Assembly: GCA_947176585.1 (NCBI GenBank)
Contig: CAMWRI010000006.1
Coordinates: forward strand, 1 to 39,759
Direction: 5' to 3'
Length of the DNA: 39,759 nucleotides
Source of the DNA: an uncultured Porphyromonadaceae bacterium
Lineage (GTDB): Bacteria > Bacteroidota > Bacteroidia > Bacteroidales > Muribaculaceae
Shown here: in pieces, positions 782-1,024 of the stretch
How positions within the stretch are numbered: position 1 is the stretch's first letter
Layout: each line of letters begins with the position of its first letter
Notes under the pieces: model-generated
Told to the model about the DNA's origin: nothing
Seen by the model: only the letters and a program-made list of their open reading frames with translations
The model's database searches: none
Translations under genes and position numbers: made by a program

Positions 782-1024
782 CAATCATCCGACTGGCAAA
801 ACATACGAATTAACAAGAAGCGTATTGCTTTTACTTGTAGAAGAAAACGTAGGAAATTTTCTTAAAGATGCAAGGGAGCAAGCGGTTCTCACGCATAGCG
901 TGGGCTGCTATTCCTACATCTTCATCTTTTGGTTTCCTACGACCATCTTCTAAAGTGTGGCAATTCAGTCCACGCTTTAATTGTTAACATCGTTATTTGG
1001 ACTGGGTAACGACATAATTTTTAT
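782..1024 (+). ncRNA. Candidate structured RNA leader of unknown class
   Basis: The region between the promoter and the start codon at 1025 is full of nested complementary segments. A closing stem is formed by 812-816/981-985 and 818-823/972-977. Inside it 838-843 pairs with 947-952 and 848-856 pairs perfectly with 933-941 (9 bp). Nested further in are 865-870/917-922, a bulged helix 877-883/904-909 and a terminal hairpin CACGC-ATA-GCGTG at 890-902. The 3' part offers competing pairings: 952-960/970-978 (9 bp, one G-U) excludes the closing stem. CAGTCC 966-971 can pair with GGACTG 999-1004, and CGTTA 991-995 with TAACG 1007-1011. Such exclusive helices beside a start codon resemble a riboswitch or a translation-control element. 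It could equally be an independent small RNA. I do not recognise the class. Confidence 0.6.

Follow-up and report, generated by a model that had tools for sequence, protein, structure and literature searches.

What is the structured segment that separates a promoter from the start codon of a small gene near the beginning of this contig? In the window (the whole 39,759-nt stretch of DNA analysed here), the 3' end of a gapA-like gene is followed by a terminator-like hairpin (616–645), the segment in question, P0001, a second small gene, a SAM-II riboswitch and a metK-like gene; the names gapA and metK are presumptive and rest on the sequence as we read it and on the presence of the SAM-II riboswitch. 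Its relatives suggest a Prevotella-like genome. The initial annotation described the segment (782–1024) as an unclassified multi-helix RNA leader with mutually exclusive pairings. Positions 780–1012 hold one copy of a ~230-nt structured leader RNA (Table 1). The promoter that had been claimed upstream is present, with both boxes and the spacer between them, and agrees with the Bacteroidota promoter consensus; transcription would start at ~779–783, at the base of the small hairpin H1. For the two genes after the leader, the Pfam and PHROG searches gave no family and no NCBIfam model reached its cut-off; one NCBIfam hit had 14.4 bits against a cut-off of 324.1. In line with the initial annotation, neither a transposase nor a reverse transcriptase, which would adjoin a retron RNA, was seen among these two genes. 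P0001 was found in one of 198 family genomes, namely the window's own, and it has a homologue in the Prevotella MAG RGIG9954 (L034), where the RNA lies upstream as well.

Table 1 Features of the leader and its surroundings (window coordinates).
Feature	Position	Strand	Content, partner or basis
Stretch absent from two relatives	~649..2220 (1.57 kb)	+	comparison with L183 and L195
Promoter	745..775	+	TTTG 745–748, 19-nt spacer, TAATTTTG 768–775; sequence
H1, hairpin at the predicted transcript 5' end	780..797	+	MFE fold
P1 5' arm, GAAGCGT	817..823	+	pairs with 972–978
P2 5' arm	824..828	+	pairs with the 960–963 region
P3/P4 5' arm	833..844	+	pairs with 946–955
Unpaired conserved AA, foot of P5	846..847	+	99% and 96% conserved, 78 copies
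P5 5' arm, includes the 848–856 stem arm of the initial annotation	848..858	+	pairs with 931–941
P6/P7 5' arm, variable	866..876	+	pairs with 919–927
P8/P9 apical hairpin	879..911	+	90.4% of cells paired
P7/P6 3' arm	919..927	+	pairs with 866–876
P5 3' arm	931..941	+	pairs with 848–858
Unpaired conserved ACC, foot of P5	942..944	+	95–99% conserved, 78 copies
P4/P3 3' arm	946..955	+	pairs with 833–844; covariation
Bulge between P1 and P2, pseudoknot 5' side (CAGTCC 966–971)	965..971	+	own- versus swapped-tail test
P1 3' arm, ACGCTTT	972..978	+	pairs with 817–823
H3, hairpin beside the start codon; loop holds GGACTG 999–1004, pseudoknot 3' side	990..1012	+	fold and pairing test
P0001, first downstream gene, 145 aa	1025..1462	+	no Pfam, NCBIfam or PHROG family
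Second gene, 131 aa, hydrophobic N-terminus	1479..1874	+	start codon picked by eye

The plus strand from 780 to 1030 folds at −76.8 kcal/mol (z = −5.68; none of 200 shuffles as good). The minus strand of the same region also folds strongly (z = −4.74), because the rod formed by P1 to P9 is nearly self-complementary. The perfect 9-bp stem reported earlier, CGTAGGAAA (848–856) with TTTCCTACG (933–941), is present and lies within P5. H3 ends 12 nt before the ATG in the window copy, and bases 1014–1024 are predicted to be at least 95% unpaired in the window fold, so direct occlusion of the start is not predicted. An extension of P1 in the window fold (810–816 with 985–991) was rejected as unsupported in homologues, with an own score of 5.9 against a swapped score of 6.7.

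A blastn search with 775–1024 matched 38 of 99 genomes, other genera and families included. When the first 30 loci were strand-flipped and aligned, most shared the promoter box, the 5' hairpin, the rod, the 3' hairpin and the ATG, and the gene behind them differed. The recurring anatomy consists of a Bacteroidota-type promoter, a 5' hairpin, the long rod, a 3' hairpin that pairs through its loop with a rod bulge, and the ATG. What the initial annotation missed is that this RNA is dispersed over many genomes and that its downstream gene varies from copy to copy. A covariance model built from 28 copies found the RNA in 180 of 225 genomes of the window's family and in 98 of 295 genomes (63 of 178 genera) of its order; the model carried a poor automatic structure of 28 bp, so the family and order searches rest mainly on sequence. 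A second model, from 78 copies and with 61 bp, found it in 60 of 296 genomes of the class and in 15 of 198 genomes of a phylum-wide draw, all 15 belonging to that same class. We take the order and the class to be Bacteroidales and Bacteroidia, from named records and general taxonomy. These genome counts include the window's own genome, and genomes below 90% completeness were left out of the rank draws and of the target-profile search described below. Since 8–12 candidates were scored per genome under stricter filters, copies per genome are lower bounds; one genome (G248) carries at least ten in the family search, which is as many as that search could count. Copies also lie on seven plasmid-collection records of Bacteroides, Phocaeicola, Parabacteroides and Prevotella (blastn), one of which is a 1.77-Mb replicon, on one unverified phage scaffold (blastn) and on 10 IMG/VR contigs (pattern scan).

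Comparison with Rfam 15 (4227 models) bears out the earlier description of the RNA as unclassified. At gathering thresholds the window gave only a SAM-II match (2303–2361) and a 5_ureB_sRNA match (15369–15670), a permissive search of 600–2400 returned nothing on the leader up to E = 5, and 13 loci with divergent copies gave two tRNAs and two sub-threshold matches, none of them on the RNA. No matching family was found in the open-access literature searched, PMC8040213, PMC7366714, PMC2864571 and PMC11697453 included. PMC8040213 describes thousands of candidates, and part of the leader family may be among them.

For the comparative analysis, L028, which has an insert, and L031 were left out from the start. 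Also omitted were 54 of 147 matches of one search and 2 of 27 of another, which were weaker and on the opposite strand of counted copies, with the exception of one short match in L177. Removal of three exact duplicate RNAs reduced 146 copies to 143; in a smaller set, L109, the minus-strand copy of L145 and duplicates were taken out, leaving 116 of 121. Wide flanks were taken for 80 matches and 19 further places. The covariation alignment holds 78 of the 116 copies, which were thinned to 86 before 8 lower-scoring copies were left out.

In this alignment, the rod, H3 and the pseudoknot together gave a covariation of 0.296 against 0.181 ± 0.004 in shuffled alignments (0 of 500 as high), and the helices slid along the alignment reached at most 0.106. 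Two-sided changes occur in 47 of 68 pairs, and 83.9% of cells pair. Against a null simulated on a tree, 11 of the 68 structure pairs are significant, five in P4, five in P5 and one in P6, so the covariation proposed earlier as a check on the helices is present. When all column pairs were tested, only three were significant, each in P4/P5, and the 116-copy set likewise gave three, all in P4/P5. No pair of P1, P2, P8/P9, H3 or the pseudoknot is individually significant against the tree-simulated null; P1, P2, P8 and P9 are conserved, not covarying. The individual helices differ as follows: P1 pairs in 98.0% of cells, with two-sided changes in four of seven pairs; P2 in 86.6%, with four of five; P8/P9 in 90.4%, with six of 14; and H3 in 69.0%, with all four modelled stem pairs changed on both sides. 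P3/P4 shows two-sided changes in nine of 11 pairs, and P6/P7 in eight of nine, yet only 65.1% of the P6/P7 cells are paired. The clearest swap is in P5, where CGTAGG/CCTACG alternates with CCTGAG/CTCAGG in homologues. Among helix cells, G-U outnumbers A-C by 943 to 222, a count biased by the choice of helices under plus-strand rules, and the plus strand folds better than the minus strand in 43 of 45 copies. The G-U excess and the better plus-strand folding suggest that the constrained molecule is most likely the plus-strand RNA.

In the 3' part of the leader, one of the two pairings proposed earlier is supported and the other is not. The pairing of 966–971 with 999–1004 is supported: the two segments are complementary and both sides change in relatives (two-sided changes in six of seven pairs, 70.3% of cells paired). 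None of its seven pairs is individually significant against the tree-simulated null, possibly owing to poor alignment of the H3 region. The partner of the H3 loop is the 9-nt segment that precedes the P1 3' arm, and variants of the pairing include CAGTCC/GGACTG, GTTGGCTC/GAGCCAAC, CAGTTCC/GGAACTG, CAGTGCC/GGTGCTG and CAATCCC/GGGATTG. With its own 3' tail, a score of 5 or more was reached by 84% of 108 copies (8 of the 116, in which no anchor was recognisable, being left out), whereas swapped tails paired well in 46% on average, with a maximum of 55% in 61 swaps, and shuffled tails in 25%. A matching H3 is missing in some copies with near-identical rods (L006, L118 and L067), which speaks against universal docking. 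The other pairing proposed for this part, a hairpin of 952–960 with 970–978, is complementary in the window, costs only 3.1 kcal/mol when forced and could form in 80.0% of cells over the 78 homologues. Its covariation is 0.191 versus 0.198 in shuffles, 417 of 500 of which were as high, and neither the hairpin as a structure nor the switch built on it is supported. Mutually exclusive pairings are thereby not established: 966–971 and the closing helix (817–823/972–978) have no bases in common and can form together. What the initial annotation did not recognise is that the 3' pairing is a bulge-loop pseudoknot which can exist alongside the closing stem. Its description of a multi-helix RNA leader before a start codon is supported; its hairpin switch is not.

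The placement of the RNA is that of a leader, near-fixed between promoter and start codon, and its secondary structure is conserved with compensatory change. In 110 of 143 unique copies the box TAnnTTTG stands 30–52 nt ahead of the model start, compared to 2 of 143 when the upstream DNA is shuffled. A TTTG located 17–23 nt further up accompanies it in 31 of the 110, and the box is missing at the expected place in the other 33 copies. Among 119 copies with a usable promoter box, the H1 stem has at least 5 bp in 88% and begins a median of 3 nt after the TTTG; the mean energy of H1 is −8.2 kcal/mol against −3.9 kcal/mol in shuffles. The ATG follows the model end by a median of 15 nt and lies within 5–30 nt of it in 112 of 133 copies, and 10 of the 143 copies lack a CDS start within 80 nt. 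The longest closed upstream ORF averages 35.8 aa versus 30.3 aa in one shuffle each, and an upstream ORF of at least 15 aa is present in 97% versus 94% shuffled (n = 133 in both), with no clear excess of leader peptides. An intrinsic terminator or attenuator was also considered and rejected, as at least 7 T within the 9 nt after the rod were found in just 14 of 107 copies with an anchor. Terminator-like sites between 590 and 2460 lie at 616–645, 626–641 and 2334–2321 (minus strand), none of them in the leader.

The genes that follow are diverse. Clustering the 131 downstream CDSs that reach 40 aa gave 97 clusters, of which 78 have a single member, and no metabolic theme was seen among the clusters. 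By a crude home-made signal and lipobox motif rule, not SignalP, 97 of 125 downstream proteins (from a set of 128) are export-like, against 108 of the 394 other ORFs that these loci contain (p = 3e-23), the linked CDSs having no upper length limit and the background being held to 100–500 aa. Pfam and NCBIfam names among the 125 include T9SS sorting tails (4), cyclic-nucleotide-binding domains (3), beta-barrels (3), BspA-type LRR (2) and GLPGLI (2). Non-exported targets include CRP-like regulators, a TerB protein (L069), restriction-modification genes and, on a plasmid record of Parabacteroides, a gene with a DarT domain. On the Bacteroides uniformis plasmid pBUN1 a leader lies 15 nt before blaMUN-1 (L068, 3999–5127). 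One target family recurs: a profile of the ‘GIPVDG’ family matched in 42 of 147 family genomes, and the RNA was present at 22 of 30 fetched loci, ending no more than 50 nt from the match to the protein at 20 of the 22, the family having been chosen as RNA-linked and one of the 30 loci (L222) holding a gene of the profile itself. This corresponds to the repeated association with downstream genes that the earlier reading had named as supporting evidence. The RNA scores at these loci are spread from 99.7 to 189.4 bits, which makes the association look old.

Copies before unrelated genes share their rods. We found 60 rod pairs at least 93% identical, which are not independent of each other; both CDSs are called for 51 of them, of which 45 adjoin unrelated CDSs. 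Eleven of 14 rod clusters bring together at least two CDS families, and the window rod is 99.4% identical to that of L004, behind which the genes are different. In rod-sharing pairs with unrelated genes, mean identity (all parts present) is 0.957 for the rod, 0.71 for H1, 0.485 for H3, 0.39 for the DNA upstream of the promoter box and 0.28 for the CDS start, compared to 0.69, 0.46, 0.37, 0.34 and 0.21, respectively, in random pairs. Since H1 and H3 are more alike than in random pairs, they travel partly with the rod, and the shared unit is not strictly the rod. Within a genome rods are 0.82 identical (21 pairs), versus 0.69 between genomes (5,757 pairs).

Taken as a whole, the RNA is probably a horizontally spreading, cis-acting leader that controls translation and/or stability of the next gene. 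We infer its regulatory output, docking as the control step and the mode by which the rod moves as follows. The segment would be an mRNA 5' leader, transcribed from ~779–783, which folds into H1, the long irregular rod and H3, and the H3 loop would dock by ~6–8 pairs onto the bulge between P1 and P2. H1 and the compact docked rod would protect the 5' end of the mRNA and set access to the translation initiation region. A cellular signal or an RNA-binding protein might then stabilise or break the docking and so tune the following gene; H3 docking would be the natural control point, and a protein-bound leader is possible. Since the same rod is found on unrelated accessory genes, most of them exported, its signal is probably global and not pathway-specific: the state of the envelope, stress, the growth phase or a small signalling molecule. 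The rod would move between unrelated genes through horizontal transfer and recombination and supply new genes with ready-made control. On a wider and more tentative reading, the leader may be a class-wide portable module whose rod is passed from gene to gene and across families, placing acquired genes, mostly exported and also including resistance, toxin and restriction-modification genes, under one global RNA-sensed signal. A large conserved leader RNA with no Rfam entry is in any case present in most sampled genomes of one gut-bacterial family and gives a way to approach many hypothetical exported proteins in Prevotella, Bacteroides and related bacteria. Should it sense a signal, many unexplained surface and secreted proteins would be joined in a regulon defined by an RNA rather than by a transcription factor. 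The sharing of rods among unrelated genes would be a testable route by which genes gained horizontally come under host control.

It is possible, if somewhat doubtful, that the leader is a riboswitch proper, with the rod as a small-molecule aptamer whose ligand sets H3 docking; docked and undocked H3 could then be its two alternative states. The large conserved fold, the conserved unpaired AA and ACC and the pseudoknot beside the start codon would suit such an aptamer. Its many copies before unrelated targets recall c-di-GMP riboswitch regulons, and a second messenger as the ligand would suit the range of targets, whereas the lack of a metabolic theme among the 97 clusters and of anything similar among Rfam riboswitches argues against it. 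Cobalamin riboswitches have a kissing loop beside the translation start, and the leader resembles them in its large size, its 5' position and a 3' hairpin close to the start codon that is loop-docked onto the main domain; it differs in that it has no Rfam match, no cobalamin theme among its targets and a bulge in the rod as the docking partner. The c-di-GMP (GEMM) riboswitches are multi-copy leaders before many unrelated, often surface or secreted, proteins. The leader shares with them several copies per genome and targets of this kind, but it is about twice as large, has a different fold and matches no Rfam family.

Rather unlikely is a constitutive stabiliser or translation enhancer of the ompA-leader kind, without any switch, which would have spread by raising the expression of new genes. 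The hairpin at the predicted 5' end, the open start region, the export bias and the position before genes as unrelated as a beta-lactamase and a DarT-domain gene all agree with it, and as in the ompA-type stabilising 5' UTR a hairpin stands at the extreme 5' end of mRNAs for exported proteins. For such a function, however, ~200 nt, conserved internal-loop bases and a covarying pseudoknot at the start codon would be needless, and the ompA-type 5' UTR is unlike a dispersed family of well over 100 copies with a conserved rod and pseudoknot.

The occurrence of almost identical rods next to unrelated genes also raises the question of a DNA element, that is, a recombination or transposition hairpin of the integron attC, REPIN or MITE kind with the RNA incidental. 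Two further comparisons are in line with mobility. First, in two relatives, L183 (G023) and L195 (G024), the gapA side directly joins the SAM-II/metK side and no RNA was found, so the 1.57-kb stretch of the window is presumed to be an insertion; the loci of the other 27 of 29 relatives matched the gapA side only. Second, L112 and L117 have 2.5 kb of upstream DNA in common (96.5%, up to the rod 3' edge) and are common again from about +1.5 kb (98.4%), with different genes directly after the rod and between the common parts; an ORF upstream in L112 matches Mob_Pre, and the ORF there in L117 has the same length and start. The copies found on plasmid, phage and IMG/VR records would fit as well. 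Like attC, REPIN and MITE hairpins, the rods are imperfect palindromes that occur beside many different genes. We nevertheless regard a DNA element as improbable, given the strand-specific G-U bias (although the helices were picked on the plus strand), the fixed order of promoter, H1, rod, H3 and ATG, the pseudoknot with H3 and the repeated association with one gene family. Unlike these elements, the leader keeps a near-fixed distance to promoter and ATG and pairs with H3. An attC site is constrained on its bottom strand and lies 3' of its cassette gene, whereas the leader lies 5' of its gene and keeps register, and the G-U to A-C ratio of 943:222 favours the plus strand, on which the helices were picked. 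REPIN and MITE elements have terminal repeats and a cognate transposase, and their insertion is free of gene register; the leader rods are shared between genes, yet their register is near-fixed.

Processing of the leader into a trans-acting small RNA of ~200 nt is very unlikely as well: the compact rod could be a stable product, but a conserved U-tract after the rod is lacking (at least 7 T in 9 nt in 14 of 107 copies) and the near-constant ATG distance matters only in cis. The FopS RNAs, described in PMC11697453 as paralogous trans-acting sRNAs of Bacteroides of ~65–70 nt, are likewise a multi-copy Bacteroidaceae RNA family with sigma-ABfr promoters that also occurs in a phage; the ~230-nt leader before its gene differs from them in both size and placement.

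Several neighbouring observations concern the loci that carry these leaders. L112, L117 and L118 have in common the leader, variable small exported-looking genes and an 871-aa UvrD-like helicase with a hydrophobic N-terminus (Pfam run on L112 and L118), a layout that resembles a cargo operon carried repeatedly by a mobilisable element. Eight other loci (L076, L091, L100, L104, L107, L110, L012 and L072) have common downstream DNA from about +1.2 to +4.7 kb, and most of them have a different first gene behind the leader. In L091, genes for a GLPGLI-like protein and a TonB-receptor-like protein come next. After gapA in L184, a different lipoprotein-like gene is led by a weak RNA match (1071–1325, minus strand; 22.8 bits, E = 0.0044 over 29 loci), a possible divergent member.

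Within the window, the SAM-II (long loop) riboswitch upstream of the metK-like gene scores 62.2 bits and is ordinary. The 5_ureB_sRNA match (minus strand, 64.9 bits) is antisense inside a 572-aa ORF (15219–16937) and perhaps reflects urease-like coding-sequence conservation rather than an sRNA. The window's own genome holds two further copies of the leader RNA, L162 (705–992, minus strand) and L163 (1335–1618, plus strand), which are divergent and represent a longer variant with extra apical sequence, possibly a sub-class of the RNA.
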